64,000 nt of DNA, taken from positions 4,278,001 through 4,342,000 of the forward strand of contig NEEC01000004.1 of assembly GCA_002189035.1 (NCBI GenBank). Reading direction: 5' to 3'. The notes under the pieces were generated by a model. That model worked only from the letters and a program-made list of their open reading frames with translations, was not told where the DNA came from and made no database searches. This stretch comes from Utricularia gibba (taxonomy: Eukaryota > Streptophyta > Magnoliopsida > Lamiales > Lentibulariaceae). The stretch's first letter is position 1. Every line of letters begins with the position of its first letter. Positions 13,563 to 55,333 of this stretch are shown here, piece after piece. Both the position numbers and the translations under genes were made by a program.

Positions 13563-16060
13563 ATGGGTCTCATCCCAATAATTGAGATGAACAGAGCTTC
13601 TACTGCAAACGCCATGGACAGAGAAAGAGAAGAGCATGCTAAGAAGGATGAAGAAGAGCACCCAACTGAGAACGAAGCCACAAGCATTCAGCCATGGAAG
13701 AGCCAGATAACTCTGCGTGGAGTAGTAATCAGTGTGCTCCTGGGTTCCCTTTTCAGTATCATCGCAATGAAGCTTGTTCTCACTACGGGGATTTCTCCTA
13801 ATCTCAATGTTGCAGCTGCTTTTCTTGCATTTCTTCTTGTTAAAATATGGACAATGTTTCTTCAGACAACAGGGATTTCTTCTTCTCCTTTCACTAAACA
13901 GGAAAACACCATGATTCAGACATGTGTGGTTGCTTGTTATGGGATTTCTTCTGCAGGTTTCCCGCACTTTTGGGGCTTTTTTTGTAGCATCTTTGTCAGC
14001 TGGGGTGCGGTTTTTGAAGGTTATTGTTGAAATTTCAGGGGGATTTGGGTCTTATTTACTTGGGATGAATAGGAGAACGTTTGAGCAATCTGGTGGGTTA
14101 TCAGTACAAGGAAATAGTCTGAGTAGCATTAAGGAACCGGGAATTGGATGGAACATGAGTTTCCTATTTCTTGTCTCCTTCATTGGGCTCTTTGTGCTGA
14201 TTCCTCTCCAGAAAGTAATTCGCTTTTTCGGTTTCACTACAGCGTAAGTTATTTGACAAGAAAGATTCAATTTTGATGTATGTTGGTGGCAGATTCTGAT
14301 CATAGATCACAAGTTGCCTTTCCCAACAGGCACAGCTACTGGATTACTCATCAACGGATTACATGGGAAAGGAGATAAAATGGCGAAGTACCCATTCTTT
14401 GTGCTCATTTACCATCTTTCTGCCTACATAATTATCCTGTTTAGGAAGCAATTCTTCGCTTGTTTGCAGGAAGCAAGTCAGGGGTTCATCAAGTCCTGTT
14501 CTTTGAGCTTCCTATGGGGCTTTTTCCAGTGGTTTTACTCAGCAAACGAAGATTGTGGATTTTCACGGTTCCCAACTTTTGGGCTGCAAGCAAGGAAACA
14601 AACGTAGAAAAAACAAAAAGTTTCCCACATTTCCTATTCCATGGATACAGATCATGACGACTAAAAGCATGTTTCCTTTTCCTTTTCAGATTCTACTTTG
14701 ATTTTAGCTTGACATATGTTGGAACTGGAATGATTTGCTCTCATTCAGTGAACTTGTCATTGCTTCTTGGAGCTGTGCTTTCATACGGCATGCTGTGGCC
14801 GTTGATCGCCCTTCGTAAGGGAGACTGGTTTCCAGGTGACATCCCTGAAAGCAGCATGAAGAGTCTCAACGGTTACAAGGTCTTGGTTAGCATTTGTTTA
14901 TGTGGATGATCAATCGCTTGGCTCCTGACCTTCACCTTGATGACAGATTTTCATCTCAATTTCCCTCCTCCTGGGTGACGGCCTCTACAATTTCATCAAG
15001 ATATCCGGTTTTACAGCCATCAAAATCTGTACAAGGATACATGGAAGAAAGAGTGGTAAGCGATTGAATGCCGGAAAAGATCAAACAGGATGTAATCTTG
15101 GTTGCTTTTCAATGCAGCAAGCAATAGAAGGGCTTACACTGATGTCAAAGACAAGGTGTTCGCTACAGACAGCATCCCCCTCTGGGTAGGAGTTGTTGGA
15201 TACATGACTTTAGCGGTGGTGTCGATCATCGCTGTTCCTTCCATTTTCCCAGAACTGAAATGGTACTTCGTCGTGATGGCCTACACTCTTGCCCCATCTC
15301 TTGCCTTCTGCAACGCCTATGGAGCTGGACTGATGGACATAAACTTAGCCTACAACTATGGAAAAGTTGGTCTTTTCATAGTTGCAGCTCTTTCCGGTAA
15401 AGAACATGGAGTCATAGCAGCAATGGCAGCCTGCGGTCTCTTCAAATCCATCATCAATGTCTCCTGCATCCTAATGCAAGACTTCAGAACAGGGCACCTC
15501 ACGCTAACCTCCACCAAAACAATGTTCCTGAGCCAAGCCATAGGGACAGCCCTGGGGTGCATAGTGACACCACTCAGCTTCGCCCTATTCTACAGAGCAT
15601 TCGACATTGGGAACCCGAATGGCGAATTCAAAGCCCCATTTGCCCTGATTTACCGAAACCTAGCCATTGTTGGTGTCCAAGGATTCTCAACTTTGCCCCA
15701 ACATTGCTTACATCTCTGCTGTGGGTTCTTCGGACTCGCCATCGTTGTCAACCTTGTGAAAGACCTACTGCCCCAGAGGTTTGCGAAATGGGTGCCATTA
15801 CCCGCAGCCATGGCGGTGCCGTTCATCGTCGGAGGGTACTTCGCCATTGACATGTGCGTGGGAAGCCTTGCCAAGTTCGTCTGGGAGAAAGTCGATTTCG
15901 TGGAGGCCGAGAGTGTGGTTCCTGCAGTTGCATCAGGATTCATCTGTGGAGAAGGGATCTGGACGCTTCCTGCCTCCGTTCTGGCCTTGTCCAGAGTTAC
16001 TCCCCCATGTGCATCAAGTTCTTGCCTGCGCCACCCAAGGTGAATGCAGGTGGGCATTAG
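13563..16060 (+). CDS. YSL: Yellow stripe-like (YSL) metal-nicotianamine transporter, OPT family, with two single-base frame breaks
   Basis: Seven exons: 13563-13956, 14039-14214, 14293-14387, 14470-14603, 14690-14879, 14947-15055 and 15118-16060. Allowing for two missing bases the product is about 680 residues, the usual YSL length. YSL hallmarks occur in order: PW..Q.TLRG near the N-terminus, MKLVLTTGISPNLNVAAA, PFTKQENTMIQTCVVACYG, GTATGLLING, PTFGLQA, GMICSHSVNLSLLLGA, WYFVVMAYTLAPSLAFCNAYGAGL (split here only by reading), FAIDMCVGS and GFICGEGIWTLP. Many hydrophobic segments fit a 12-14 helix plasma or internal membrane carrier. YSLs move Fe, Zn, Cu or Mn chelated to nicotianamine. One G is missing in the run 14481-14484 and one C in the run 16002-16006. 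Uncorrected, the frame ends at 16043; corrected, the stop is 16058-16060. I cannot assign a YSL number. Confidence 0.9.
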
Positions 16061-16969
16061 GATGGATCTTGGCAATTCGGGTCGGGCTCCATATGAAACA
16101 AGAACTGGTGTACATACATTGGAAAACCCTTTTCCAAGATTGATAGTATGGTTAAGTATAGTATAATATATGTTTAATTATATATATATGTTTTATATAT
16201 TTAATTGTATATAATGTTTTATATTATTGAATAGAAGATATGGATATAATTAGCTATTCTCTCTATTTAAGTATATTATTTATATATTCAAAAATTAAAT
16301 ATGTAAGTGATATAATTATATAAGTTGTCATATATATGTTAATTAATAAAAAAAATATTATATTTATAAAGTTGTGTGTAAATTTTATATACTACACTAT
16401 CAAATATTATTTAAATTTCATCAAAATTTTAAATTATTCTAAAACAAAATAATTTTGATAAAAAAAATATTTTATATTTGTAAATATAATGATTAGTTAT
16501 TTAAAAAGTTTGATTATTTTTAAAATGTTTAATTTTTTTAAAATATAAATAATTTATATTCGGTAATAAAATGTATTTGTACAATGATTCAAAAAAGATA
16601 GTTTGAAATATAAAAGATAAATCGTTGGTTCATATTATGGGATCCAACCAAGTAGCCGTATATGAGCTGTCTGTCAGCGATTGGCTGTCTGTCTTAATGA
16701 TAATAGCAACAAGGATTCACATGGAGGAGGAATTTACCACTTCACCCTTTTTACTCTTGGTTAAAAACATGTGGAGCTAAAAGGTAATAATAAATTCAAG
16801 CGGCAAAAAAAAAAAAAACCAAAAGTGTTTTCAAAAATTTATTCAGCTCATGGGTAAATCATTTTGGCTAATGCAACAAGATGGATTAAAATAAAAAAAA
16901 AATCTCAAACCAACCAACCCCACGTGGCCGGCATCCATGGCGGGTAGCTAAAAGAATCCACGGTTGAGA
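16061..16969. other. Intergenic spacer between convergent YSL and GH17 genes
   Basis: This stretch is very AT-rich at 16140-16660 and becomes more mixed from about 16620. The YSL and GH17 genes converge here, so both 3' untranslated regions lie inside. No coding sequence, repeat family or RNA gene was recognised. Confidence 0.5.
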
Positions 16970-18488
16970 TCAATTCAGGACAATGAGTGGGACCACCAGA
17001 CAAAGGATTGCCAGCAGCGCTCCATACGCAACTCTCTCCTGCACCCGCGATAGAGATAGAATAAAAATGGAATTAATAATTGGTGGCAAGCACTAAAAAT
17101 AGAATTAATCCACCGACAGAGACCTCTTTACCGTGAGGGTGCCCTTAAAAACAGGGGGCCCTACGCCTACAGAGTTACCGCTAGGGGAATAGAGTGGTAA
17201 AAATCGGATTTATTTACCGTGTTACTGGAGAGAGTTCAGGGGACTTACAGCGTCATCCGCATTGATGGACAGGTACCCGTTCGGCGGCTCCACCTTCGGC
17301 GCCGGCATGTACGGCGGCGATACACCGGAGCTTGGCTTCCCTGCACTTCCGAGCCCTGTCAAGTTGAACCCCAAATCGTAGACCGGAGTGCCGTTGGGAT
17401 TGAAGAGGCCGAAGTTGCGCTCCGACGTTGGGCCAGGCTTCTGATTCTCGTTGAAGAGAGCGAACACGTAGATGTTCAATTCGGCGTTGGGTCTCATCGG
17501 AGTTCCCTTGTTTTCCCGGATCAGCCGGAGCAAATTGCAGTTGTAGATTCTGGCGTTTTGGGGGGTCGCGCCGGCCTCATCGGCGTCGCCTTTGGACGGC
17601 CACCCTGTTTCGGAGATCTGTAGATTCACGTTCTTGTACCCGAGTTTGTCCATTGCGTGGTAAACGGCGTCGATTTGAGCTTCGAACATGTTGCTGTAAT
17701 GGAGCCCGGTGCCGGAGTCGAGAACGCCGGAGCCCTCAAATAGCACGAAGTCGAGGGGTATTTGTTGCGGCTTTGCTTTGTAAGCGAAGTAGGGGTAAGC
17801 GTTGATGAGAAACGGGGATCCCACCTTGTGGTGGAAATCGAGGATGCAGGCGATTCTCTGGTTCAGATCTCGGCGAAAGATCCCAGCAGATGGCGGCGAG
17901 GAAACTTCTAGAATGCCCATATTGTGGGCGGTGGTTACCGTGACTTGTTTGTCGAGGTTCAGTGACACGAGGGCGGTGTGAATGTTTTCCATGGCGGGGA
18001 GGAGGGCGGCGGAGAGGGCGGAGTCGTTGGCAGTGAGGACCTCGTTGCCGACTGCCACGCTGGTGATTTTTGTCGCCGGTAAGTAGCATTGAACTTTGTC
18101 CTTGACCCATTCCTGGGCTTTCGCCGGATCCCGCATTTCAAGAAGGTACTCGTTGCCGAGGCCGACGATGAACTCGACGCCGGAGTTGGCGAAGGCTCTG
18201 AGAACTCGTGGGTCGGCGTCGTAGAGCTTGAGACGGGTGCCTCCAATGGACTTCACCAGAGGCACAACGGCGGCGGGATCGGGGAGGTTGTTCGCTATTT
18301 GGCCGTAGTTGATGCCGAAAATCGCGGCGCCGGCATTGTAGACAGCTGCATTTGTTTTGGCAATCACACAAATCAGAAAGAGCTACAAAGTAAAAAAAAA
18401 CAAACCTAGCTCACTTTAATTGACAAACAGTACCTGAAAGAAGAAAGAGAAGCACCATGCGGCGGCGGTGGGCGCCGGAGTAAGCCAT
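16970..18488 (-). CDS. GPI-anchored glucan endo-1,3-beta-glucosidase (GH17)
   Basis: Three exons on the minus strand: 18488-18434, 18345-17249 and 17038-16970, giving 406 residues. Exon 1 carries most of a signal peptide (a basic start, then MVLLFLLS). Exon 2 carries the GH17 domain with GINYGQ near the N-terminus, the general-acid motif VAVGNEV (Glu about 120), the nucleophile motif ISETGWPSKG (Glu about 264) and the C-terminal RNFGLFNPNGTPVYDL. A strong GTAAGT donor follows codon GCT. Reading through it would give an artefactual stop at 17222. The small last exon adds ERVAYGALLAILCLVVPLIV, a hydrophobic tail typical of a GPI-anchor signal, and has no X8/CBM43 domain. The enzyme hydrolyses beta-1,3-glucan (callose) at the cell surface; plasmodesmal or wall roles are known for anchored members. 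No defect was seen. Confidence 0.88.
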
Positions 18489-18880
18489 TGGTGAAGGAGG
18501 AGGAAGAGGAGGATGCCGATAACGCAAATAATAATATCTATTCCCTTTCTGCGTTGCCTGAAGTCAGTGTCGTATTCACTTCCTTGTGGGCCCATATTAT
18601 TCCAATTAATTTGTTTTTTTTACCAACCAATTGCATGCCTATTGATTTCTATTTTATTATATTATTAATTTTAAAAACCCTCTCGTTTTCTAGCCGTTGT
18701 CTGTTACTTTTATACATATTTTATGGTGTGATTGAATTCAGAATCTAAAAAAAAAATTATTTTATAAAATCTCATTCGTAATTGTCCGACCGGATCCCAG
18801 ATAGGCCGGGCCCGGTCGGATCTCTTCGGATCCCAACCGGTCCAACACCAGGGACATTGCATGGAGGTGGGCGACTGACA
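18489..18880. other. Spacer between GH17 and ABIL genes
   Basis: Both flanking genes are on the minus strand. This 392-base gap therefore holds the GH17 promoter and leader and the ABIL 3' untranslated region. A GC-rich patch with short inverted pieces lies at 18785-18860. No coding sequence is supported. Confidence 0.45.
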
Positions 18881-23179: not shown

Positions 23180-24450
23180 ATGAATCATACGCTAGCATCA
23201 ACACAAGTCTTCATCGTCGTCGTCATCGGTCTCTGGATTTCACGCGCTTCCGCCGCCGCGGGTGCCGCGTTCAACGTCACCGCCGCGCGGTTCACGGAAT
23301 CGTATTCTCCCCTTTTCAGCAAATTCAACATTCACCCCTCTCCCGACGACAAAGCCGTCCATCTCCATCTTAACCGTTTCTCAGGTTGATATGCCCGTAC
23401 ATCTTTCTGCGCTTTCGATACGCACATGCAACTGCCGATTCTGTGCATTACAGAGAAAACGGGTATTGCAGGTTCTGGGATCATATCGTCGGACTACTAC
23501 AGCCATGGCTTCTTCAGCGCGGCGGTTAAGATGCCGCCTCTCCATACCGCCGGCATCGTCGTCGCTTTCTATGTACGTTTCGATTAGATACGTGATCTGT
23601 TTTCCGATGAATAGGCGAAAAATAGAAGATTTTTGCAGACGTCGAATGTTGACACCTTTGAGAAGAATCACGACGAATTGGACATTGAGTTTCTGGGGAA
23701 TGTGAAAGGGAAGCCATGGCGGTTTCAGACGAATGCTTATGGGAACGGCAGCGTTTCGCGTGGCCGGGAAGAGCGGTATCGTCTCTGGTTTGATCCAGCG
23801 GCTGATTCCCATCGGTACAGCATTCTTTGGACGCCTGAAAACATCATGTAAGAGGCGTTTCTCGTGCACGATCTAAGAAGCCGCGTATCCTGATCACGAA
23901 TGAATCGATCTCCCTCGATTGCTTTTGCAGATTCTACGTGGATACTGTTCCGATAAGGGAGATCCGCCGCTGCGCCGCCATGAGGGGCGACTACCCATCG
24001 AAGCCGATGTCCGTTTACGCCACGATCTGGGACGCGTCCTCGTGGGCCACAAACGGCGGTCGTGAAAAGGTCGATTATCGGTACGAGCCGTTCGTGGCGG
24101 AGTTCACCGATCTGGTGCTCGACGGCTGCGTTGTTGACCCCTCCGATCAAGTCCCATCATCAGATTGCGCCGACGCGACTGCAGATCTCATGGAGAAGGA
24201 GTACGCCGCCGTGTCGGCCATGGGCCGGCGATCGATGAAGTGGTTCAGGGAGAAATATATGTACTACTCTTACTGTTATGATGTCGTGAGATACCCCGTG
24301 GCGCCTCCAGAATGCGTCGTTGTGGAGTCGGAGAAGGAGATGTTCAGAACCACAGGGAGGCTGAGAGAGAGGATGAAATTCGGTCCACACCACCGGCGTA
24401 GTCGAGGGTCCGCCCGGCGACGTCGGAGAGGGGTTACCGCAGCCGTTTGA
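23180..24450 (+). CDS. XTH: Xyloglucan endotransglucosylase/hydrolase (XTH27/28 type, GH16)
   Basis: Four exons: 23180-23384, 23472-23572, 23639-23847 and 23931-24450, giving 344 residues. Related Arabidopsis XTH27/28, as recalled, are about 330. An N-terminal signal peptide (hydrophobic up to about residue 30, SRASA) precedes the GH16 jelly-roll. The catalytic motif HDELDIEFLGN gives nucleophile Glu about 115 and acid/base Glu about 119. Xyloglucan-side motifs (KPWRFQTNAYGNG, GREERYRLWFDP, YSILWTP) follow. The XTH C-terminal domain is present (MYYSYCYDVVRYP, PPECV). A long Arg-rich tail (RRSRGSARRRRRG) is typical of the XTH27/28 group. The enzyme cuts and rejoins, or hydrolyses, xyloglucan in the wall during growth. 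It converges on the CSLD gene, with 204 bases between the stops. The start is the Met of the signal peptide. No defect was seen. Confidence 0.93.
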
Positions 24451-24654: not shown

Positions 24655-27600
24655 TCAGGGGAACTGGAAGGAGCCCCGATCTGAGTGTTGCCTGCCGGAG
24701 GGGAAATCGAGACCCAGAGGAGCGAAATGGTGATGGCGATGAGACCAGACCAGACGAAGACGATGGTCGGAGTTCTTCCCCGCCGCCCCATCAGCCCCTT
24801 GGCGAAGGGGTACAGATGAGCCAGCACCCAGAAGCTGAAGAACACACCGCCGAGGAGGCGACTCCACTGCGGAATCGTGCTGTATATCGTCCTGCTCACG
24901 CCCACCGCAATGGCGATCAGGTTTGTTATCATGATGGTTATAGGGGGGATCATCAGGGATGACCATTTTATGATGTAGAGATCAGCGAAGTCTTCGTCTG
25001 CTTCGTCGCCGGCGGATTTGGATGTTAGGGTGAATGAGATCTCGATCCCGGCGATCACCTTCAGAAGGCCCTGGATGACGGCGGCGAGGTGGGCGCTGGT
25101 GCCTCCGATCAGCCAGAACTGCTCATTTCTCCACCACTCCTCCAAGCTGATGCCTGACCACTTGATCTCAAGCATGGCGAGTACGCAGAGAGTCATCGTA
25201 ATGACCAGAAGATAGACCAGGAAGCTAATATTCAGTGACTGCACGATGAACTGCCCAGAGAAAAGGGAAAGCGCCGGCAGGAAGCAGTAGACGATCAGGA
25301 AGATGGAGGTGAAGGGGTAGATCCCCACGTTGAGGTAAGCGATTCTCTGCAAGACCTTCATCCTTGAACTGGCTAACAATGCATTGTTCCTCGAGAAGAA
25401 TATCTCAACAGAGCCAGTCGCCCAACGGAGCACCTGGTGCAGCCTGTCGGTCAGGTTGATGGGTGCAGTGCCGCGGAAAGCATCCCTTTTGGTGACACAA
25501 TATATCGACTTCCAGCCGCGGTTGTGCATTCTGTAACCTGTCACCACATCCTCAGTCACCGATCCATAAATCCATCCCACTCTGTTGCCCCATTCCGTTT
25601 TCTCCTCATACCAGCACGAGATCACACTGATTGCCTCAGCAACAGTTGATGCGTCTAGCAGTTCCCTTGGGATGGTCAGTGCACCTGGTGCCCGTCCATT
25701 TTTAATGGAGGGGTGATCTGCCAGCGGCCTTCCCTGGAACTCAGCTACTGGAATGGAGTCAATAAGGAAGCTTGAGTTGCCAAACCTCTTGGAGAATATG
25801 GAAGGGTTCATTTCGTCATCTTCTGAATCTCTAAGAGCACGGTGCTCCTCTGGCGCAGAAGAAATTGATGCACTTTTCTTTTGACGAGGCAAGCAGCACC
25901 CACACCAGCCTGAGTGTTCTTTAGTTCGTGGAGGGTCAAAGCCATACAGAGCTGTCCTTCGAAAGAGACATCCTGTGCCAACATAAACTGGACCTTGAAG
26001 GCCATCCAAAGCCCTCATGTTCACATCAAAGAAGACAGTGTTATGATTTGCATATCTATCAGATGGATCGATACCCTCAAACCTCTGAGGGAACTGGACA
26101 TAACAAATCCGATCTCCACCGCGATCCATCATGAAGCACATACCTTCCCGTATTGCCTGTGAGTTGTATATGTAGTGATCACAGTCGAGGTTTAGTATAA
26201 ATGGGCCATTAGACATGATCGCCGATGCTCGAACCAATGCATTCATAGCCCCTGCTTTTTTGTTGTGGTCATATCCTGGCCGCTTTTCGCGGGAAACATA
26301 GACAAGCAGTGGAAGGCGAATGTCCACCTCACTGAAATCCAGCGAACTGCTCTCAGAGGTTCCATAAAGGGGTTCGTCACTGGGGGGTTTCAGCATCACC
26401 TGCAGATCAAACAGCCATTAGTGACGGCATATTATCTTATACGCATACGTAACAGAAAGAAAAAGATACCTGAATGATCCCAGCATGATCACCCTTCGCG
26501 TGTTCAGGAGATGAAACAGTCCATGTCCCCGGCCAATGTGTTCCATCAGCCATCCATGTTGCGCGGGAAACCTTCACTGCTTCATACTGCTCATCTTCTG
26601 AATGTTGTCTCTGATGCTTCATTGCCTTGATTTCTTCACGAGCATTATATGCATCAGAACGGCGCCTAATAGAATCAGGCAGACCATTGATTCTGACCTT
26701 GAATTCATCATACTCACGCTTGACTCTTCTTCGATCCTTGACAAAATCAGGGCGCACCTTATTCTTGAGGGGATCCCTTTTCAGACCAAAGTAACTTTCT
26801 GGATTTCTAGGTTCAATATCGTGTTTACGGCAAAATGGGACCCACAAGTTAGCAAAGCTTGCAGCTTCAGCCATTGCTTCAAATGTAAGAAGGGAACCCC
26901 CATCATCAGAAACATAGCAAGAAAGCTTTTCAGCAGGGTAATCAGCAGCAAGAATAGAAAGAATTGTGTTTGCGGTAACAAGAGGTGGTTCTTTTTCAGG
27001 ATCGGCAGTGGACACAAACATATCGACCCCAGGAAGATCAGACTTTCCAGTTGGATTTGCAGGGGAAGGGGCCTCAAACTTGTCTTTCAAAACACCAAGA
27101 TCAGCGGCTCGATTAACAGGGCACAATTTAGGGAGCTGATCAAGTAGCCATGAGAAAGCAAACCAAATCTCGCAAATAACTGACATCAACCAGAGCCATC
27201 GTGCATCCTGATTAGGGTGCCTGATCCTCCATGCCAGAAATAGACCAAGAACAACCATTCGGACAAAGATTAAGAGCCTGGTGGAATTAGTAGAAGAAAA
27301 AGTCAAATTTTGAAGCATGGTGCTCAGAACCAAATATCAAAATCGTGAGCATAGTCTCGCGCCATTTCTAGTCTATCAACAGGGTTCTTCAGTTTCACTA
27401 AAGCAGCAAAATAATAAAAAAAAATGAAATTGTATATGCACAATCAAGCACTTCAAATTCTTGATCTCACAAGATCCTGCTGCATAATGTTTCAAATTTT
27501 CCCATTTTGCATAATTAATAAAAACTTGATGCAACCAAACCATGAGAACCAAAATGATAATACACCACCAAAAGAAAACTACCTGTATGGGCTGATTATT

Positions 27601-28478
27601 GCAGCAGGCACCTTGAGTTTGCGAGTCAGTGGTCTCCATGGCTTGCTGAGTAGTTCTGAAGGACCGGAACCCTCATCAATTTTGTCATTAGTGGACCCTT
27701 CGCCATCCCTAGGCCAGATTGCATTGCCATAGCCATAAGTACCCTGTGTCTCAAAAAGCCATTTGTTATGATCAAAATCCACGCCAGTTTGGCTTCTTGA
27801 GAGGCCTGATTGACTCCTCATTATTTGGGACCTATTTGCAGATTTCATCAATGATAGCCTTCTCTCCATCTTGGACATACTACCGGTCGGTGGCAATGGT
27901 AATGCCTGGACGGATTCCACTGGATTTGGCAATAAGTCTGTATTCTGGTATGGTTCCTTACAACCAGGACATATTCCGTCACCTGTCTTAGCAGAATCAA
28001 TGAAACAATCACGACATATTTTGAAACCACAGTCACATGGAAGAATATCTTGACCCCTCTCATCACTCATCACTTTTCCATCACACCCTGGTACAGCACA
28101 TGAGGATCCTTTAGCACCAGCCATCTGGGGATGATTAGCCTCAGAATCAATCACCTTATCCATCAAGTGTGCACGAGTAACACTATTGAAGCCACCTGTG
28201 AAGAGCGAACTAGAAACATATTGCTCTTCAACCCTCTGTGCAATCAGAGAAGGTTCTATCCTCAACGACATTGAAGCATCCATGGGCTGATTATCTGGCG
28301 TTGGTGGTATATGAACCGTATACTCTGCGAAGTCAGCACCATTCATCTCACTATCAAGGCTATCTCTGGACAGGTTGACATACCGACCAGAAGACGTCCT
28401 CCTCTTGAAGGTAACTGAAGGGTTATCCAAACCTCTTCCGCTTTGTGAATCAGAAAGCCTGGAAGATCTTCCAGCCAT
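24655..28478 (-). CDS. CSLD: Cellulose synthase-like protein D (CSLD), with one C-terminal frame break
   Basis: Three exons on the minus strand: 28478-27583, 27277-26470 and 26399-24655. They give about 1149 residues if one missing G is allowed; CSLD proteins are about 1130-1180. The N-terminus ([14 protein letters not shown]) matches the clade. A Cys-rich RING-like zinc region lies at about residues 127-173. GT2 motifs are present: VSDDGG (about 422-427), LDCDHY (Asp about 640 and 642), TED (about 850-852) and QVLRW (about 890-894). Two membrane helices precede the catalytic loop and about six follow. CSLD enzymes make beta-1,4-glucan/mannan-type wall polymer in tip-growing and dividing cells. 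The conserved end QIGGSF.FP requires five Gs where the minus strand has four (plus 24674-24677). Without it the frame runs on to 24597 with an unrelated tail. An acceptor-like site near 28527 suggests a leader intron. Confidence 0.93.
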
Positions 28479-31400
28479 TTGCACGAAAATTTGAAATGAA
28501 AATCTATATTTTATGCCTCAAAGAACCTGAAAATCATAACAAATTAAATCAGGCATTCGTTATTTGTTTCAACTACGAAAACATAACATCGAAAATTACT
28601 AGCACTTTCTACCACACCAAAAAATCTCTACAAATCTCCACTCCTCATGGTAAAGAAATCATCCTTGAATCACATGGAAACCCATTTTTCTTCAACAGAC
28701 CCATAGATTCCGCCCCATGAACCACAAGCAGATGAACATGAAAAATACCAATCATCTGCAGAAATCCGGAATTTGACTTTCCGACTAATGGAATGTTTTA
28801 TAGAACTTCAACTCCAGGCAATAAAAGAGTGTGAATATTTCAAACCGTACACGCTCTTTATATGTTGCCACCGGGAAAATAGACTCAGTAAGAAGCCACA
28901 TCACGCAGGGAAACGACCAAAACAAAGACGAGTGAAGAACTGGCAACAGCCACCAATTTCTTTTTTAATAAAAAAAAAAAACAAGAATGTGAGCCCCATA
29001 CGAAAGCAGCGCTAGAATAAAAAAAAACTCTATAGCGCAACGACTCGGTCCTATACAATTACTCAGTCAAGAGGTTCACAGAAACATTCCAAAACAGAAT
29101 CGCAGTTGCAGAGCAGCTTCGAAAACTTACTCAGCCGAAGTCACAGGCAGCGTTGTAAGCAGATCGAATCGGCTGTCAGAAAAAAAAAACGAGAATCGGA
29201 AATGCGTTAAAGTACAGAGGTCGATACTCCGTCAACACGCGGCGGCAGTGGGAACACAGAGCCAGGAACCGATTCGGATGTCTAGTTTACCTTGAGAGAG
29301 AACTGGAGATCGCAGCCGCGGAGAATGAGCTGGAATTGAAAAGGAATGGGGTTTTGCAGAAAACAACGGCAGCGGCGGATGTGTGCTCGAATTGAAACAT
29401 TTTGACGTTTCCTTTTTTTTTTTCTTTTTCCGTTTAGAAAAGGAAAAAAGGGAATGGCGTGAAATCTATTATTATTTGATGAGATATTTTGAACCCATTT
29501 TCTGACCGTTGGCGGTGGGTGGGGTTGGAGCTTAAAACCCTAGCCTGAACAGATTTGAATGTATAATAATATATTATATAATTGAATTGTTTAATAAATG
29601 AGTTTAATCAACAATAAAAATTTGAGATATCAAATGGATAAAATAAAATAAAATGCAGAAAATAGGTTGATAGGAATTATTCTCATGAAAAAATAAATAA
29701 TTCTTGAAGAAATTCTAAATTAAACCTTCTAACCAAACACATTATTTTACAAATTATTTGTATAAAAAAAATCAGGGTGATTTAAAAATCCGTGGGAAAA
29801 TATTTATATTATATTTTTTTATCTGGAAGTTAATATAAATGAACCTAAATTGAGAGATGGGGAAAAGTAAGAGTTGGCAATAAATACTTCCCGTGGGAAC
29901 AGCAAAATGGCGTGTGGAACTGTGGATGGGTTGGAGGCTGCTCTTTGAACTTTGTGGGAGAAAGAGAAAACGACGGCGTTTTGATCAACAACCACGCCAG
30001 CTGGTGAATTCTGTTTTGCCAGCAAGCACGACTTTCGTTGAACAAATAGCATCTAACCTCGGCATCCATCCAGGCGCCGATGCATCAATAAATAAATAAA
30101 AATGAAGATTAATAAAAAGAATATGAGAAAACCGTCGGACTGCAGGAAAAGGCAAGGCTGTTGGTTTCTTTGTGCTCCATGATGCAAGCGGGTCGCAAAT
30201 TTCATGAGGTATATTTAGCCACTGTATTTTAATTATGATAAAAATAAACATGGTATAAGGCTTGATAATCAATTTTCTAAATGATCTCAAACTTATGATA
30301 CTCTATTATATCAAGTTTTTTTTTGTATGATAAAATTTTTTAAAATAATATATATCAATAGAAACGATACCTTCAAATATTATAAAAGTAAAAAATTAGT
30401 AAAATGATAGATGATGAAAGTTTCGTGGAAATAATAAAAATGGTTCGAACAATCATTTATTTAAATATGCATGCATTACTCTTCATTTATTCTGTATCAA
30501 TTGAAATAGTTATAATTGAAATATATCGATTGGTTTTATAGAAACTTCATGAGAATATTCATTCCTAAAAACTTTATTCTATGGGTAAAACACCCTCGTT
30601 GCAAAGAAAATTTGTCATTAACACCTCCAATCCTATGGGTAGAATTGAAGTATTTTCTGAATAAGAATTTAATTTTACCCACTATCTTTTAATATATTCG
30701 TAATCGAAAAATACATGTTCCAAGATAGAGGTTCTGCACAAATACCGTAATCATAATAAGTAAAATAATGTCTATATCTATAAGCTTCCCGCATATTATT
30801 CATATTTCTTCTTAATCAATAGCCAAATACATATTATTTTCATCGACTAATTTGATCTTTCTCGATTTTCTAACTCTATAATAATTATATTAATATATTT
30901 AATAATTTTTTTAATATTAATTACATTTACTTGTTGTCAAACTTAATATAAAATTATTCCTCCCATAGATAATGTTGATTTGTGTTTACTAACTCTATAA
31001 TAATACCAAAATTTTATATAATACGTATTTATTTAATGATTAATAAGTTAAATGTATTATTAATTAAAATATAAAACCACTAAAATAATCGAATTGAAGT
31101 TTCCTCCCAAAATGCTCATGATTCATGACTTCCTCAAGGACAAATTGGCCCACCAATTAGTATTTATTAGTCAACGAGAAGACACATTTAATAGACCGAA
31201 ACACCCTCTTTTGGAAGGAAATCAAAACTGTATTGCTTGAGCAACACGTATATTGTGAGGGCGAGAATAGTCAAAACACATATGAATTAAAACACAACTG
31301 ACGTGGACGCGGCATTTTCCGCTAGCAAGTTGAACTTCTGCCCTTTTCGTTTTCCCATTTTTTTTTCCGCAAATTTCCTCTGGTTTGGATGATTGGTTGT

Positions 31401-32286
31401 CTAGGTTTTTCTTTTTGATTTACTTTCGTTTAGGGAATCAGGTCTTCTTGAGGCATGAACGATGAAATTAATCCGACGACTCCTCTTTTTTGTATAGATC
31501 TATGAGTCTTTCGTTTATCGAAGTTAGGTTTTTAGGTTTGCAATAATTGCTGCTGGAATTTGCACGGAACTGCGCTTCTGTCGATCTAAGGTTGTTCATC
31601 GATTGTTTTGCTTAAGTTTTTTGTTGATGATTTATGTTTGAATCGATCGCGAAACTGTGGATCGCAGGGAATTCGATAATTCGATAATTTATGACATCAA
31701 ATTCGTTTTTTTTTAAATAATAACAAAATCTTGAAAGCTCAGAAAGTCAGATCTTTTGGATTTCCCTTATTTTTATTTGATTCTGGAAGCTATACGGCGT
31801 AAGTTATTTTCATGTTTTTCTTGGGGCACGTTTCTTCTCTTTTTATATGTTTTGGTTGACTTTCTGAAGCTTAAGGATTTCAGTGTTGATTAGAACACTA
31901 ATTTGTGCATGCTATTTTCCGTGCTTTATAAACTTATGCGCTAAAACACCCCAAAGACGTTGAAAACTGGTTAATATACGCAGCGTGTGCCCCTTGTTCG
32001 CCTTAAGTGTATTCCTATCGTTATCTTTATTTCCATATGTGCAGACATATTTAAGCTTATCGATTTGCGTTTTCTTCCTCAAACTGATGCAGCTGCAACC
32101 GCTAGAGTAGTTCAACTTGCATAGCCAGGGAGTCTGTCTTCTTGAGCAGCTATCCTTGTGTTCTGGCTTTCTTCTCAGTAGCAGTGGCTACTGGATGTTT
32201 CCAGTAGTATAATAAATTGTAAAGAAATTTTGTCTTTTGAAATTTTGCTGTGATTTGGCGGATATTAATTGATCTGGTTGGTCAAA
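28479..32286. other. Divergent intergenic region between CSLD and SRO genes
   Basis: Both genes are transcribed away from this 3.8 kb region. Positions 28479 to about 29400 are of mixed composition and probably contain the CSLD leader, a leader intron and the core promoter. About 29550-31100 is strongly AT-rich with no gene. From about 31300 the mixed T-rich sequence probably holds the SRO promoter and a long leader with introns. No coding sequence was supportable. The small minus-strand frames at 29819-30290 lack any family match. Confidence 0.5.
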
Positions 32287-35200
32287 ATGAACAGAAAATT
32301 AGAACAGGTATTGGATACTGAACGCCTTGTGCTTGATCTCAAAAGGACGCATTCTGATCATGGCTCCATCTGTTCCTCTGGAAAAGTTAGTTTTCCTTTG
32401 GATTTATCTTGTGTTTTATCCTGCTCTAAGCTCCCGAAGAGGAGGAGATTGGATGCATCTGGTCGATGTGATTTTCAATCAGGAAGACGGTTGCTTAAAT
32501 GTTATTCTGATTTCAAGAGAACTGGAAATTTACAGCGCCTCCTTTACTATCAGAATGATGAATGGATTGATTTCTCTGAATCTGTCGTTGAACTTGTTAA
32601 TAAGGACCTTATTAAGAATACATCCGTTGAAGTGCAAGTCAGTGGTAGTAGGATTTTGCTAGATTTCTTACAGAAGATGCAGTGGGACTTGGATACTGGT
32701 TCGTGTAAGTCTATTGCGTGGATTGATGTTTCTGGAAAGTGTTTTTTCCCTGAAGAAATTTTTAATGATTCTGACGGTCATGTATTTGAACCTAAGCATG
32801 TGGAAGATTGTGATCTGATAGAAGCCGAGCCTCAGGGATACAGTGATGTGAAGTTGAATTTGGAGATTGAAGTACGTGCATTTGATTATGAAGGTAGTGG
32901 AGATTGTGATGGCGAAAGCATTGATTGTGGTGCCAAAGGCTCACCTGTACAAAATGATCACCATTTACTAAATGGGAAATTGGAAGAAAATTTGAACCTT
33001 GAGGTCACCAGTGTAAATCGATCAGCAGACTTCAGTGCTGTGAGGGATATATTTTTTAAAGCTATAAAGCCCGATACAGCAGAAATTGTTGCCATCCGTG
33101 AATGCAAAAGTTTAATATTGGATTCCCATTTTGAGCTTTTTGAGAAACAGTTGGAAATCACTAAAAAGTATCGTGGCGATGGGAATGTGAGATATGCTTG
33201 GTTTCCTTGCCCAGATGGTACTGTTCAATCCATACTCAACTTTGGTATAGGTCACTACAATCTCCACAAGGATAATCGTTTCAATGGTGCTGGGCTTTGT
33301 CTTATCCCTGCCAATGGAACTCAGTTTAGGTATGCTACTACACTTTTTTTTTTTTTGCTTGTGCTTTGGTATGATCCACCAGGTAGGTATGTATGGTGGT
33401 CTTGGAAACTATGGTCATACCTGAGGCCACAGAGTGCTGTATAATGAGAAGGATTTGATACATATTGGCCCCAACTGGTCTGCAATAACAGAGTTTGCTG
33501 AATCTGCCGAAGAGGACTTATTAATTTTGTTTATTGGCACGCACCAAATTGCACCTTAGCCATAGAAAATTGCCATAAGGAATTGCATTAATCGCTGATT
33601 CATTACTTTAAGGATTTATACGAAACATGGGGAAGATTCACTAAATAAAGCTATTTTTATGCCCCTTATGCTCGAGTGTTGAGATCCTTTCCTGTTTGTA
33701 TTGTAACCATATGTAAATAATTCGTGCATTGTACTGTGATTCTTTCCTTCTGTTGAGTGTGCTCTGAGTTGAAAAGCATTTTAGCCGCGCCACCCTCCCC
33801 CCCCCCCCCTTCCCCCCTGATTTTACCTTGTTTTTTGCAGTATCAGTGATATTGATGCCGAAGAAAATGGGTCACGCCATGTAGTGCTTTGCCGTGTTAT
33901 AATGGGAAATATGGAGGTTGTTCATTGTGGGTCAGAGCAGTCCCATCCCAGTAGTGACAACTTCGATAGTGGAGTTGATGACCCTCAGGCTCCAAGTTGC
34001 TATATTCTGTGGACCATGAATATGAATGCTCGTATCTATCCAGAATGTGTTGTTAGTTTCAAAATCACCTTACAAACTGAAGGATACGGTATAGTAATGC
34101 ATTTCTTCTTTCCAGTTTTCAGTGGGCTTCTTCTGTATTCTTTGATGGATGGTTTTGTCATTTACCGCATTCCTGCTTCTAATTTTTACGGCCCACTGAT
34201 GTTTGTTTACGTTTTTCTTGGTGAAGTTTTACTAATTTTCTTCTAAATTTGGATTTCTGGTTCATTCCTGATCCCCATTGCAGTGTGTGAATCTAGCAAT
34301 GTGCCTGGAGTTGGTGCTTCTACTTCCATTCCTAGCAATAAGAGGCTACCTGCCAATGTAATGTCCTACATCTCTGGTGATAAATTTTATTTTTCTTCAA
34401 TCATATTGTTTTTCTCGCTAAAAAGATGCATACTTCTTGGGATTATAAACCCATTAAGGATTTTCTTGGTTGAGTTGCCTAATTATTTCTATTGCAAAAA
34501 AGTGGATTCTGTATTTTTTGCACAGGATGTATATAGATTTTTTTACTAGCTTTTTGTTGTCTTTCGTTAATCTTCTGAAGGTTAAGATTTTTTGGTCATG
34601 TGGAAAGGAGCCTTAAATGGCTACCATAATTTTTTTACCTGAAACTTACATTGAGCTGTTGGAGACTGAATGAACTTTGGCAGGCATAATGCTTTATTTT
34701 CTTCAAATTCCTTCTATCACCGCCTTAGTAGTATATTTTACTGCATCATATCTACACTATGTAGATGCCATATGGGATATTGGTTTGAGCTAGTTTCGGT
34801 GCCTGTGTTGATGGTCTTTCTTTTGTTGATATGTTCTTAAATCGGGTGGGGTATCTAATCTCGTCTCTTTATCCATTTTTCTCTTATTGCTCTCTCGCCT
34901 CATCTCTGCCACTTGGCTTCATCTGGCTCAGAAGCTGAACATCAGCATCATGTCGCAGAAACATAGAGCATAGTAGCGGTCGTTTGAACACCCTGTGATT
35001 CAGATGTGGATATACACAGGATAATCATTGCTCAGTTTTTAATATTTTTTTCATTATTCTAAATGTAACACTGGATGGGAACTTATTAGATTGCATTAGC
35101 GTGAAAGTAGTATGGAAGAACCATGTTATTGGAACCGTAATTGTGTCACAGGCTAGCATCAACATCCATAGAAGGCAGAGCTTTTATGAGCTCGTGTTGT

Positions 35201-35700
35201 TTGACAATGATATGTGATTTGCTTTTTTCTTGAAGCTTATATAGGTTTTCATTTGCTTCCGCCGCTCATGTTGCATCTCATTCACAACATATAGGTAAGT
35301 ATTCCAAAGAGCCCCTGGATGCCATTTCCCGTGCTCTTCACCTGCATTTCAAGTAGGATCTCCCCTCAGAAGATGGAGATTGTCAGACTGTACTATGACT
35401 TGTTCAAGGTACACGTGCTCTCGCTTTTATATTCGCTGTATCTCGCCCAAGCACCAACTCTGCGGTGTTTCTTATCTCGTACTCGGCAGACTAAGATGAT
35501 CCCCGGGATTCCTTCATCGCAAAGTTGAGGGTGATTGTTGGGGATGCTGTGTTGAAATCAGCAATCACAAGCCTAAGGCGCGAGGTTAGCACCTTCATAC
35601 CCAGCATTCATATATTTTTTACTTCTACAGTTGTAACGTTTCCTTTCTTGTTTTTCCATAGATCCCTGAGGCATCGACCTCCGTTGTCGAGACGTCTTAA
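32287..35700 (+). CDS. SRO1: RCD1/SRO-type protein (WWE, PARP-like and RST domains), with one frame break
   Basis: Six exons: 32287-33329, 33841-34088, 34284-34357, 35295-35408, 35490-35584 and 35662-35700. They give about 537 residues if one missing base in exon 5 is allowed. A basic nuclear signal PKRRRLD lies near 50-56. A WWE domain (KRTGNLQRLLYYQNDEWIDF to AWIDVSGKCFFPE) is at about 70-160. A PARP-like fold follows (QLEITKKYRGDGNVRYAWFP, HVVLCRVIMGNMEVV, NYILW-like YILWTMNMNARIYPECVVSF) at about 260-440. The C-terminal RST domain (PKSPWMPFPVLFTCIS, FIAKLRVIVGDAVLKSAI) binds transcription factors. The full domain set points to RCD1/SRO1 rather than the short SRO2-5 forms. By family it is an inactive PARP acting as a stress and hormone transcription hub. 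A C or G is missing in CCCCGGG at 35501-35507; otherwise the frame stops at 35525-35527 inside the RST domain. Confidence 0.9.
33797..33809 (+). repeat. Poly-C tract in SRO intron 1
   Basis: A run of thirteen C bases, followed after TT by six more C, sits about 30 bases upstream of the intron 1 acceptor. It could serve as a polypyrimidine tract, and its true length is doubtful given the G/C-run problems elsewhere in this window. Confidence 0.9.
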
Positions 35701-37199: not shown

Positions 37200-41796
<4,597 letters not shown>

Positions 41797-45608: not shown

Positions 45609-45853
45609 TTTGACCCACGAGGTTTAGTAAATTAGAATACGAACGCTTCTTCTGCCGTCCTGATGATTCCTTTGCACCGACCGATTCCTTCTGGTTGCGA
45701 AATCTCGAGGATTCTGAAGCAAACATTGTTATCGGCGCCTCCTCCGTCTTCGTGATTCTCCAGTATCTCGAATTTTTCACCGGGACTCCACATGGAAGAA
45801 GGATTGTATGGATGCCATCGTTGAGGATTGAACATCAGAAAAGGTGTTGAAAG

Positions 45854-47510
45854 ATGAGTTTACAAGATCTATAAGCGGTACGTCGAGCTTCTGGGATCCA
45901 AAAGGGGTATACAAATGAGAAACAGGCTCTGGCATCCGGAATCTATCCAGATCAATACATCGGTTTCCACATTTCAGCGCTTGGTTAACAAAAAGCTATT
46001 TGTTTGCAAACTTCACTGGTGGGATTGTGGGTAAAAATCTCCATGAAGGGGCCATCAAGTATGAATCTCATTCCTGTTAGGAAATTGGCTCTCTTTGCCT
46101 GTGTAGAGAGTACTTTAGTGATGCATTGGATTTGGCTGTCTTTGCCTGTGAGGTTTTATCCATTTAAGCACTTTGGTGATGCATTGGAAGTGTTACGTTA
46201 TCCTTTCAGTTCATGGGTTTGTGTAGATTCACCTCAGCCATAAAACTCTGCTGGATATTGGACAGTTGTTGAAGGATACATCATCTAGGCTGAAAAAAGC
46301 AAGTGAAGCAGATCACAAGACTGAAGTTAGTGTAAGCCTGGTTCTACATTGACGGGATTCTATGGCATTTTTCTCCTAAACAATGACCATATCATGATGA
46401 TCTATCGAGGGGTATGGCCATTGTGAGTATTCATAGGCCAATTTTGTGCAAGGTATGTTGCTTACATGCCATATTGTATCATCTTCTGTTGTGTGCACCA
46501 CCAACCTTGCTATCCCTTGTAGCAATTTCATCCACTATACAGGCGAGCTAGAAAATAGCAGATGCTTAGTTGGCAAGGGACTTTCAAATTTCAAGCTGTT
46601 CTGAAGTAGTTTCAGAGGGCTTAGAGGCTTGCAGCTGAAAGGGAAATGCCGTACCGTATATTTCTGTTCCTCAAGCAGTACTTCCTTCCAGGTGATACAG
46701 TGGTGGTTGGTGTAATTTATGAGGTTCAAAGTTTGCTTCAATGTCCATGCCAGTGGTCCCAAAGCATGCACTTTTGTTGAAAGACTACTTTTGGTACTTG
46801 CATTTTGGGATGCCTATCTTCTGCAGCTGCATTTCTGGAGAAATAGATGTTTCAGCAGATAAGGCATTAGATGAGCCAGCACTTCTTGTCGAATCCAGAA
46901 GGTACATGAACAGATAACACATATTCCACTGCGACCACCATGTGCTTCTCTATCAAGGGCTTTACTATTTTTAATCATGGAGACGGACTGCTCCTTCCAT
47001 GTTTTCCTTCTTCCTACCTCTGGAAACTGAGGATATGATGTTTTCTTGCACAACGTATACATCCCATGTCAGAAATTACATTCTGAGTTTTTCATTTCCA
47101 TACATTTTTTCATCACTTATTTTCTACTTCTTTTCTCATGCCTGATCCTTGGTATGAGTTGCCATATACTGATGGTGTCTCACCATGTTGCTGCTGATGG
47201 ACAATGATATCGCTTTCAAGAAGGCCATTGCAGAAAAAAGAGAGCTCAGTGCTGATGATACACAAAATACAGAAACAAATTGGTGAATTGAGCTATATTT
47301 TCAAGGACCTTGCAGTGCTGATCCATGACAACGAAACATGGTTAGTAAAACCACTGTGCATCACTTTCATATCCCGTTATTGAAGATACTCAGCATTTCA
47401 ATATAACAAGTTCTCACAGAGGATGTCGGTTCCAATGCTGAAGGAGCTCATCCCGCAACTGCTCTGGGGAAATCTCAGCTCGCATGGCTGCAAAGTCTCA
47501 GACTTGTTCA
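45854..47510 (+). pseudogene. Decayed SYP2-type syntaxin (Qa-SNARE) pseudogene
   Basis: Pieces of a SYP21/22-like syntaxin occur in the right order on the plus strand. From 45854: MSLQDL then an in-frame stop, and further on ALASGI followed, after a one-base shift, by QINTSVSTFQRLVN (about 45934-45990). About 46241-46330: KTLLDIGQLLKDTSSRLKKA and SEADHKTEVS. About 46552-46660: KIADA, stop, LARDFQ, then shifted pieces ending AAEREM. About 46845-46902: DKALDEPALLVESRR. About 47185-47345: LLLMDNDIAF, then shifted IQKQIGEL and IFKDLAVLIHD. About 47423-47490: DVGSNAEGAHPATALGKSQL. Pieces end at GT or start after AG, so introns were kept: this is a decayed duplicate, not a retrocopy. The C-terminal membrane anchor is not found. 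Intact relatives act in vacuolar and pre-vacuolar fusion; this copy cannot encode one. Confidence 0.85.
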
Positions 47511-47718
47511 AGATTTCAAAGAAGACAAGCACAGAGCACTTAGTAAATAATGGTTGCTTTGCTCTTGATCGGCCGGCCCTCCAAGGAATAAATGGCTGGA
47601 CCCGGCCCGGCCCGGCCGGGCTGGGACCAAGGAAATAATGGTAGGTCAAGGCGCTGGAAATAAATGCGGTTACCTCTTCAGCCCGCGGCGGGTGGCTCGA
47701 AATAAAGTCGACCGGAAA

Positions 47719-49451
47719 ATGTCGTCAGAGGACAGCGATGTTCCTGATTTAGTATGCGAACTTGATAGTGTACAAGGCATTGTTGATGCTCTTACCTTAA
47801 TCCGTTGGAAGCGCCAACAGGTAATGATTTTATTATTCCTCTGGTTCCTGGTTTTCGTTACCTTCAAGCACTGTTGATGAACGGAAATGAAGGAGTGATA
47901 GGATGCTGTGGTTGAAATATCTGAGCATGGCATTGTGGTGATTGTCGAGGATGCGGGATGTATTCAGGCCAAGGTTTATTTGCAGCGTGAGGTTGTCAGT
48001 TTTTACCTCTTTCAGTGATCGCTATTCCTAGATATTTGTGAACTCCTATTTGGTGCTGATCATTTGGAAGGATGCTTATTTTGGTAGCTGTTCATCAAGT
48101 ACATTTATCGAGCACATGGACGGCCCCGTTTTGGAATAAGCTTGGCGATGCTTGTTGATAGTCTCAACATATTCTCAGCTCCAGGCCACTCCCCCATCTT
48201 GGAGATCCTTTTTCCAGGGCCGGATATGCAACTTCTATTGCGGTTCATTCTCCTTTTTGCTACCTCTTTTGTTTTTGTTTTAGAGTGTCCATTGTAGTAT
48301 TTGCTTTTCATGTGTGATGAAGCTAGTTGGGTTGCTCAAGATGTGATGGTGGCTAGGGAGATGAGCACATGTGTGGTGTTTCTGAGGTCACAATTTTGCA
48401 GTGGAACACTGTCATCTTGGTTTTGGTTGCAAAAGAGTTGTATATTGCTAACTACATTTTCCACTTCGGTTGGTAAAATTTTGTATATCTCACAGAAAAA
48501 AAACAAGGCTCTGTAATGTGAACGAGAAGATATATTGCCACAATGAGTCATTAGTTCTTTCAATGTTTAGTCTTGCGTCTTTCTTTATACTAGAGTAAAT
48601 GCCTTTCGTTTTCTTTTCCTTGTTTGCTAGATCAGTTGATTCTCCAGGCACCTGTATTTACGCAGAAATCCGAACAAGGATTCCAGAGACCATTTTGTGG
48701 GACTACAACTTTGAGCCTGCTGGAACTACTCCTTTGAGTTTTACAGTCAAAGTACTCGTAGATTGTTACTCATTAACACATCATATTTCATATCGTCTGA
48801 TTTGGGAAGTATTGTTCTATGGATGTCATTCATTACCCCATCATCAGCTTCGTTTTTTAATGAACAGTCCGCAGCTCTGAAGGAAGCAATTGACGATCTT
48901 GAATGGCCTGGATCTAGTGTGAGTATAAAGTTGCAGCCGGCACCCCCATGTGTGATATTAAGAGGGGATGGCCATGGAGACTTGCAGGTGAGCTTGGGAA
49001 AACCTCATTACTAATTCCTATTCTGCTTAGAAGAATCTCAAAAGCAATTGCCGTGCAGGTAGAATTCAGTTACTACGCAAATATGGATCTTCTGATTGCC
49101 TTCAGTTGTGATCATTCCGTTTCTCATAGGTAAGTTACCCTTGCATCCCTCCCATCCCTGAGGAATGATGACTCTTTTCAAAGAAAGTGAGGTGGAGTTC
49201 TTTTTCTGTGCTAAAATAGGTACAAGTACAAATTCCTCAGTGCCACGACCTCAAACATCCCAAGCAATGTCCTGAAGGATAACCGAGGGAGCAAAGTGAA
49301 CATAGGCAGAGACGGCATGCTCAAAGTTCAGCATCTTGTATCAGTTGCCAAGCCCTCTGTTTCTCATTCCTATGTGGATACTCCCGGTTATCAACAGCCG
49401 AGCCGCATTGCTTATGTCGAGTTCTTTCTCAAGCCAGAGGTAGAAGATTAG
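47719..49451 (+). CDS. RAD1: RAD1 cell-cycle checkpoint protein (9-1-1 clamp subunit)
   Basis: Seven exons: 47719-47820, 47902-47991, 48088-48242, 48631-48751, 48868-48987, 49059-49129 and 49220-49451. They give 296 residues, the family's usual length. Diagnostic blocks are DLVCELDSVQGIVDALT, IRWKRQQDAVVEISEHGIV, RPRFGISLAMLVDSLNIFS, YAEIRTRIPETILWDYNFE, SAALKEAIDDLEWPGSSVS, YYANMDLLIAFSCD and KVQHLVSVAK. The protein forms the PCNA-like ring with RAD9 and HUS1 that is loaded at damaged DNA by RAD17 and activates ATR signalling. The chosen Met gives the family N-terminus. The frame is open upstream to 47638 but that stretch is not conserved, and it contains a GC-rich repeat-like patch near 47600. 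The gene converges on the ABCB gene, with 213 bases between the stops. No defect was seen. Confidence 0.94.
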
Positions 49452-49664
49452 TATAAAAATGAGAGCTTTTGATGTATTTGACAGAGAATGTGATCAATGA
49501 AAGCAACAGATTATGGAAGGTAGCTCCCTCAACTCATCATAATCGAACTCCATATCCTCCCTTTGTTAAAAGTCCCAAGAAAGAAGCAAACCGTTTGCTG
49601 CACATGTATGATCTTGTAGTATGCTTCATACACATTCAGATGAATACCTTGAAGTCGTACCCTG

Positions 49665-52600
49665 TCACTGCTGCTGTTGCTGCTGTCTTTGCAAATTGAT
49701 CAGCTTGTAGTAAGCACCATCTTTGTTTTCTATAAGGCTGAAGTGCGTCCCCTTCTCAATGATCTTCCCATCTTGCAATACAGATATCTGATCTGCATTT
49801 TGTATCGTGGAAAGTCTATGAGCCACCATCACCGTCGTACGGTTTTTCATTAACCTGTCCAGAGCCTGTTGTACAATGCGCTCTGATTCCACATCCAGTG
49901 CACTGGTAGCTTCATCCAGTAGCAAAATGGAAGGGTTCTTCAAGATGGCACGCGCAATGGCTACCCTCTGCTTCTGGCCGCCGGAGAGCTGGACGCCCCG
50001 CTCCCCAACTTTGGTCGAGTATCCATCCGGCAGGCCACTGATGAAGCTGTGTGCATTCGCAAGCTTCGCTGCTTCGATTACTTCAGCCTCAGTGGATCCT
50101 TCTTTCCCATAGAGAATGTTTTCGTAAATGGAAGTAGCAAAGAGAGCCGGCTCCTGAAGCACTAAGCCAATGTGCTTTCTCAGAGATTTGAGCTTCAGTT
50201 TCTTGATATCCTTCCCTGCAGTACAGTACAGAAACAGCAGGTTACCACTACTAGCAGTTCTTGAGTAAAAACCTGGATCAAGTTTTGTTCCTACCATCGA
50301 TCATTACTCTTCCTTTAGTTGGATCGTAAAACCGGAGTATGAGGGCGATGACGGAGCTCTTTCCAGAGCCACTTTGGCCTACCAGAGCCATACTTCTTCC
50401 GGCATCCACTCGGAGGTTGAAGTCCTTGAAGATCAGAACGTTTGGCCGGGAAGGGTACGTAAACTCGACATCTTTGAGCTCAATCCTGCCTTCCACTCTG
50501 GAAATCTCCTCTCCAACATCACTAGAGATCTCAGGCCTTCGGTCCATCACTTCAAATACAGAGGCAACCATTTTTTGGCCTTTGAAGAGATCTGGAACCA
50601 TGGCCAGTGTCTCTCCCATGGATAAAGCCGTAACGATCAATACCATAAAGGGTTTCATCACCGTTTTGAAGTTTGCGAGATCCTTCTCCATCAAAGTAGC
50701 GCCATACCATAATGCAAGGCCATATGAGGAGAAGACGAAGAACTGAGAGACTCCATAGAATATTCCTGCACCTTGGCCGCGCCTCAGTGAGCTCCTTGAT
50801 GGTTCAATGAGCTCACGTGCGTACAGGTCAAGAATCTTTTCCTCTGCACAGAATGCACTAACTGTCCGGATATTACTGACAGCCTCTCCAGCAAGCATAT
50901 TGGCTTTCAGGTACGCTTTGTTTAAGTCCAGTCCATAACCTCGCATGAAAAGTTTCTGAAACAACAGAATATGTCAGTTTGGTTTTGACCATAGACGTCT
51001 GAGTAGTTATTTATGTCTGTGTACCTCACTGATATGGCCGCTAATCATGAGTGGAAAAGTAGCCATGACGACGAGCGTAAGCCTCCAGTTCAAGATGAAT
51101 GCAATGATGAAGGAAGTCACAACCAAACCTACATTCTGGAGAAGGACGCTGGACCTATCAACCACCAAGTTGCGCAACATGGTTGCATCAGTTTCTAGCT
51201 GCGCTGCCAGTACAGTACTCGCATTGTCCGCATCATCAAAAAATCCTATCTCATTTCTCAGCATAGCTGTTTTTGCAGTTGACACCATGATTAGGATTTG
51301 TAAAATAACAATAGCAATATCAACAGCAGCAATATTGTATAGGAAATACTGTTTACTTACCCTTGAACATTCTTTCCCTTACGCGCAGGGTGAGCCTTTC
51401 TCCTATGATGCCAAAGCATAGATGAGCAATGACATGAACAATGATTGTCGTCAGAGCCCCCCACAGAAAAGGAGTGAAACTCTCCTGACTTCACGCTTTG
51501 TGGTGTCCCAGTCCATGTAGTAAGACACAAGAGCCTGTGTCACACCAAATGCGAACAGAGGCATCAGCGAGCCAGCAATAAAAACGCCAATTGTTCCGAA
51601 AACCCCGTAAAACCAGTCAGGCCTCAACATGGAATACATCCTTTTGACTGAAACTTTCACAGGTTTATACATCTCAGGTCCGTCACCGCCAAACTTGCTG
51701 AAAGATTTCTCTGATCGGAAGCTTGCCCCAAGGCTTTTAGTGGTGCGAGATAATTCTCTGGAGTATGCAAAGCTGCCATCACGTGAGTACCTCGTGCTGA
51801 AATTGCAAAAAGTATAGTCTGAATGTTGTTTGCATCATCTTTCATGATTCATTTGTCATGTAAGATGTATGAATAATGATTAATGTGCGCATTGCAAAGT
51901 AAATACCTTTGCCGGCTCATTGCAGGACCATGGGATGAAGCCATACGATTTAGAGAAGCTGAAGTGCAAGCTGAAGCTTCTTGTAGCTGAACTAGTGCGG
52001 CATATGTGCTGTTTGCTCTTGAGATCAGCTCTTCATGGCTACCTGTTTCCACTATTGCACCATTTTGCACCACGGCAATCACATCTGCATTTCTGATGGT
52101 TGAGAGCCGATGAGCCACAACAATGGTTGTTCGCCCAACCATCACCCGGTCAAGAGCCTCCTGCACACTCTTCTCTGATTCAGCATCAAGTGCACTCGTA
52201 GCTTCATCCAGCAACAAAATGGAAGGATTTTTCACTATCGCACGTGATATTGCTATTCTTTGCTTCTGCCCACCAGAGAGTTGTATTCCTCTCTCCCCAA
52301 CCTGAGTTCCAAATCAATCCAATGTTTCTTAAAGTTGAGCATTGAACAGTAATCGGAAAGTATCAACTTTTCAGGATATAAGTCCAACGTGAAAAAAAAA
52401 AAACTATCTTGAAAAGACTTGGTAAGCCATTAACAAGTGGTGGCCTAAAGCGAAGTACCTGAGTCTCAAATCTCTGAGGGAGGTTGCCAATGAAGTTGAT
52501 TGCCTCTGACAGCTTTGCAGCTCTAGTAATCTCTTCCATGGTGGCATTTTCTTTCCCATAGAGAATATTCTCTCTTATGGTAGTGGCAAACAGGGCAGGC

Positions 52601-55284: not shown

Positions 55285-55333
55285 CCCGAAGAAGAAGAAG
55301 AAGATCAAGGGGGTCGAGAATCCTCCCAGTAAC

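Follow-up and report, generated by a model that had tools for sequence, protein, structure and literature searches.

At G/C homopolymers, the consensus of PacBio reads "tends to miss a G or C"; the false frameshifts that result were corrected there by Sanger and Illumina sequencing (PMC4849082). For Plasmodium falciparum 3D7, an HGAP/Quiver assembly had approximately 25,000 indel discrepancies before Illumina correction (PMC5964635). The PacBio genome of Utricularia gibba was assembled with HGAP and has a contig N50 of 3.4 Mb; a review prints 581 contigs and a genome size of 82 Mb (PMC5793159). The assembly analyzed here comprises 100.1 Mb in 516 contigs, and the region under study, referred to below as the window, is the 64,000-base stretch at bases 4278001-4342000 of contig C413, with a G+C content of about 40%.

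The original prediction, made from the letters of the window, was that single-base losses at G/C runs break four otherwise conserved genes at five places: two in a YSL gene, and one each in the CSLD, SRO, and ABCB genes. All five breaks are present where they had been placed. We regard it as very probable that they are errors of the assembly and do not belong to the plant, the consensus having lost one base at G/C homopolymers, and the plant's own four genes are most likely intact.

Breaks in the window

The main features of the window are summarized in Table 1. In a three-frame reading, the frame of the conserved protein shifts exactly at each of the five runs. All five events are losses, none is a gain, and every site is a G/C run of at least four bases. 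In sampled coding sequence of the window, G/C runs of this length account for 3.6% of bases and A/T runs of this length for another 3.6%; breaks placed at random would hardly all fall at G/C runs, as these five do. Further, peptides spanning the breaks align through them with relatives from the same genome, namely five YSL loci at both YSL sites, CSLD-like loci, and two ABCB loci. Paralogs were also aligned to the window with a purpose-written protein-to-DNA aligner that allows for both splicing and frameshifts.

Table 1. Genes and break sites in the window
Feature	Positions	Strand	Description	Basis
ABCF3-like gene	7700..13132	+	Control; 18 exons, no break	Spliced alignment
YSL gene	13557..16058	+	Iron-phytosiderophore-type oligopeptide transporter; two breaks	Match to 7wsr Iron-phytosiderophore transporter, E 4.5e-111
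YSL site 1	14481..14484	+	GGGG just 3' of third intron; net loss of 1 base	Three-frame reading, all five paralog queries; flanking introns phase 2 in all paralogs
YSL site 2	16002..16006	+	CCCCC about 18 codons before gene end; net loss of 1 base	Three-frame reading, paralogs
GH17 main exon	17225..18382	-	Control; no break	Pfam match
XTH gene	23183..24450	+	Control (HDELDIEFLG); no break on reading	GH16 matches at 23.65-24.08 kb
CSLD gene	24660..28517	-	CSLD-type cellulose synthase-like; one break at very end	Cellulose_synt model 148-714/722 directly upstream of break
CSLD site	24674..24677	-	CCCC (GGGG on gene strand), six residues before conserved stop; net loss of 1 base	Three-frame reading, paralogs
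SRO gene	32269..35578	+	WWE domain and split RST domain; one break	Domain matches
SRO site	35501..35507	+	CCCCGGG at start of second RST exon; net loss of 1 base	Three-frame reading, RST paralogs
ABCB gene	49668..55605	-	Transporter, closest solved relatives ABCB1/ABCB19; one break	Protein matches
ABCB site	51457..51462	-	CCCCCC (GGGGGG on gene strand) at start of second transmembrane half; net loss of 1 base	Three-frame reading, paralogs

In the frameshift- and intron-aware alignment of the YSL gene, a one-base loss was reported at both of its sites by each of the five paralog queries. Five introns occupy the same positions and have the same phases (1, 0, 2, 2, 0) in all six genes, that is, the window gene and its five paralogs, which bears out the earlier argument from exon phases that an extra base is required around site 1. 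Read backwards from this site, the downstream frame has no stop across the preceding intron, and an automatic annotation that kept this intron as coding sequence could mask the error. The window gene also carries a 62-base intron at positions 15056-15117 that is absent at that position in the five paralogs examined. Additional events near 15060-15130, seen with some of the paralogs, arise where the aligner skips this intron and were not counted as breaks.

The break in the CSLD gene was not reported by the frameshift aligner, because just six residues and a stop codon lie beyond it, too little to offset the frameshift penalty. The reading of this site rests on the FQFP ending and the stop, which reappear in another frame beyond the break. 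An apparent second frameshift in the same gene, near position 26460, is an ordinary 70-base intron and disappeared once the intron residues were removed from the query.

When the WWE exon of the SRO gene was used as a protein query, no paralog was found in the genome; a search with the RST family gave usable ones. With these RST-domain paralogs as queries, the alignment needs an intron of phase 0 together with the loss of one base at the run, but it takes the loss only under a reduced frameshift penalty. The SRO loss is therefore supported by the aligner, not independently discovered by it. The ABCB paralogs of the genome are only about 31-36% identical to the window gene around the site; their alignment crosses the break but gives its position poorly, and the main evidence here is the three-frame reading. 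Solved plant ABCB structures match the gene up to the break, where the phmmer alignments end.

The genes predicted to be free of such breaks include three that served as controls. The ABCF3-like gene aligns uninterrupted over 713 residues; its query, by itself only a lead, is validated for this purpose by 81% identity from end to end. The GH17 exon is one open frame spanning the Pfam model, and the XTH gene reads through on inspection, with consistent phases. Also unbroken on reading is a gene missing from the original list, an alpha/beta-hydrolase gene that is BODYGUARD-like by eye and lies on the forward strand at about 5.4-7.7 kb (5466-7700).

Breaks elsewhere in the genome

Outside the window, we scanned 47 genes with 66 kb of coding sequence from four families, GRAS, HSP70, YSL, and CSLD. 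The GRAS and HSP70 families have long uninterrupted exons; in searches with them, many genes appeared as neighboring matches lying in different frames, and such split genes were included together with intact relatives. The sample is deliberately enriched for split-looking genes, and its per-kilobase break rate is not an unbiased estimate. A break was counted when there was good support on both sides of it, and the expected numbers are from intervals of equal length placed randomly in the same genes.

In total, 26 well-placed breaks were found in 20 of the 47 genes, and 24 of the 26 are net one-base losses. G/C runs of at least three bases are touched by 18 of these losses (5.4 expected), runs of at least four by 12 (1.3 expected), and runs of at least five by six (0.3 expected), whereas A/T runs of at least four bases are touched by one loss against 2.2 expected. 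None of the 447 A/T runs of this length in the scanned genes was assigned a break. The proportion of G/C runs with a break is 0.6% for runs of three, 3.2% for runs of four, 7.7% for runs of five, and 37% for runs of six or more (three of eight runs). The preference for G/C runs is incomplete: the aligner placed five of the 26 breaks at A/T pairs or triplets.

The broken genes are spread over at least 12 different large contigs, and the phenomenon is thus assembly-wide. Some of the broken genes, in both the HSP70 and the GRAS family, share 82-95% identity with a paralog that is intact. Of the roughly 45 GRAS loci counted in the family search, about 13 are broken, which is a fairer figure than that from the enriched sample. 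One GRAS gene (L025), 89% identical to an intact paralog (L052), has lost single bases at two places separated by six codons, and one of these places is off any homopolymer.

Regions assembled twice

Some stretches of the genome are present on two contigs. Contigs C241 and C304 share 10 kb without a single substitution; they differ there by five one-base indels, of which four are in G/C runs of 3-5 bases. Given the zero substitutions, these indels are best read as errors of the consensus and not as alleles. Two other pairs have structural differences and G/C-run indels in addition to substitutions, five in about 10 kb for C248/C413 and 12 in about 10 kb for C316/C412, and are probably haplotypes. 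The C248/C413 pair was considered as a replicate by itself and set aside as ambiguous owing to its substitutions, C241/C304 being cleaner. Around one locus (L020 in C248, L021 in C413), about 5.5 kb are found only in C413, with few substitutions nearby, consistent with a haplotype insertion or deletion. The sizes of contigs C1, C2, C505, and C507 (8,500,000, 6,192,500, 3,452,500, and 642,500 bases) are exact multiples of 2,500, which suggests cuts at fixed positions.

Wherever such an indel falls in a recognizable gene, the longer run keeps the frame. For instance, an AP2/ERF-type gene is open in C241, which has the longer run, and broken in C304; a GRAS gene is open in C412, again with the longer run, and broken in C316. 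An ABCC-type transporter gene is open in C248 (GGG, position 7323) and broken in C413, the contig of the window (GG, approximately 425.65 kb). Finally, an HSP70-family gene has a break at GGGGG (gene strand) that is common to C304 (about position 820) and C241 (about position 810); it fits a systematic error, and a real mutation would fit too.

Origin of the breaks

Taken with the duplicate contigs and the genome-wide pattern, the window supports the earlier reading that G/C homopolymers are systematically under-called; the preference is strong but not exclusive, given the breaks at A/T pairs and triplets. In the mechanism we propose, the long-read consensus would under-count G/C homopolymers by one base, and the chance of a loss would climb steeply with the length of the run. 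The underlying data would be PacBio RS II reads assembled with HGAP/Quiver without short-read correction. The case for the G/C-run artefact as a class is strong; that each individual site of the window is an error is only probable.

The breaks could instead be real germline mutations, leaving pseudogenes or altered protein ends, in a lineage with a mutational bias to one-base losses at G/C runs. Substitution rates in Lentibulariaceae are among the highest in angiosperms (PMC5749785), two of the five window breaks affect last residues only, where a loss could be tolerated, and the HSP70 break is common to two contigs. We nevertheless consider this very unlikely. Protein conservation is undisturbed on either side of the breaks, including the ending and stop of CSLD. 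The decay expected of a pseudogene beyond its break was looked for along the YSL and CSLD genes, and around the site in ABCB and SRO, and was not seen; in YSL and CSLD, there is no disruption besides the losses at G/C runs, and the conserved sequence resumes immediately. Moreover, on the germline reading, the roughly 13 broken GRAS genes would all have died recently, as would several HSP70 genes that are highly conserved, and indels in the complete absence of substitutions, as in the 10-kb duplicate pair, are the reverse of natural divergence. It is similarly hard to credit that the plant truly has an unusual recent bias to one-base deletions at G/C runs, so that the individual sequenced has frameshifts in many of its conserved genes, which might be somatic, confined to one haplotype, or bypassed at transcription or translation; we give this an extremely low probability.

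Alternatively, the assembly might have taken a haplotype with real deletions, the other haplotype being intact. True haplotypes do exist in it, as the substitutions and structural differences of C248/C413 and C316/C412 indicate, but indels occur in G/C runs as short as 2-4 bases at a rate comparable to that of substitutions, and C241/C304 differ by indels without any substitution. For YSL site 1, no alternative contig was found among those of the assembly. Allelic breaks are thus an exceedingly improbable explanation. There is next to no likelihood that no base is missing and that the breaks reflect alternative splicing, or shifts of frame that the plant tolerates or that translation corrects. 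At YSL site 1, retention of the open upstream intron or use of an acceptor eight bases downstream would each restore the frame; both alternatives remove or displace the KQV residues kept in all five paralogs, where the intron has the same position and phase. The breaks at YSL site 2 and in CSLD and ABCB lie inside exons and leave no room for an intron.

Under-counting of G/C runs by the consensus therefore remains the preferred explanation, and it has practical consequences. It had been expected that automatic annotation would call the four genes truncated or pseudogenes. This applies to ABCB, SRO, and YSL site 1, where the break is internal, but not to CSLD and YSL site 2, where it is within the last codons and annotation would give a wrong tail, not a lost gene. 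If the assembly is used as is, a false frameshift may be present in about one in four to one in three long conserved genes (at least 13 of about 45 in the GRAS family), and counts of pseudogenes, gene losses, and lineage-specific protein ends would be inflated in this small plant genome. Short-read polishing is the routine remedy.

Comparison with known systems

The phenomenon probably corresponds to the documented loss of G/C homopolymer bases by the PacBio consensus, and it carries no biological novelty. As in the actinobacterial PacBio assemblies (PMC4849082), one G or C is missing from a homopolymer, the frames of good genes are shifted, and the effect is one of the consensus. The actinobacterial cases come from high-G+C bacteria and were confirmed by Sanger and Illumina sequencing, whereas the present one concerns a plant nuclear genome studied at the level of its assembly.

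By analogy, the window would also resemble uncorrected HGAP/Quiver assemblies, such as those of P. falciparum (PMC5964635) and of Xanthomonas with its G9 runs (PMC4853030), in that the residual errors are mainly indels, occur at homopolymers, and create false frameshifts; the software lineage appears to be the same. The errors in P. falciparum, an A/T-rich genome, are mostly in long homopolymers and TA repeats (>14 bp), whereas here they are in short G/C runs of 3-6 bases in coding DNA. Finally, the gene-fragmenting errors of nanopore assemblies (Kastor, PMC12007338; Homopolish, PMC8011154) are similar in that homopolymer deletions inflate pseudogene counts and can be detected via homologs, although the platform and the base-calling cause differ from those considered here.
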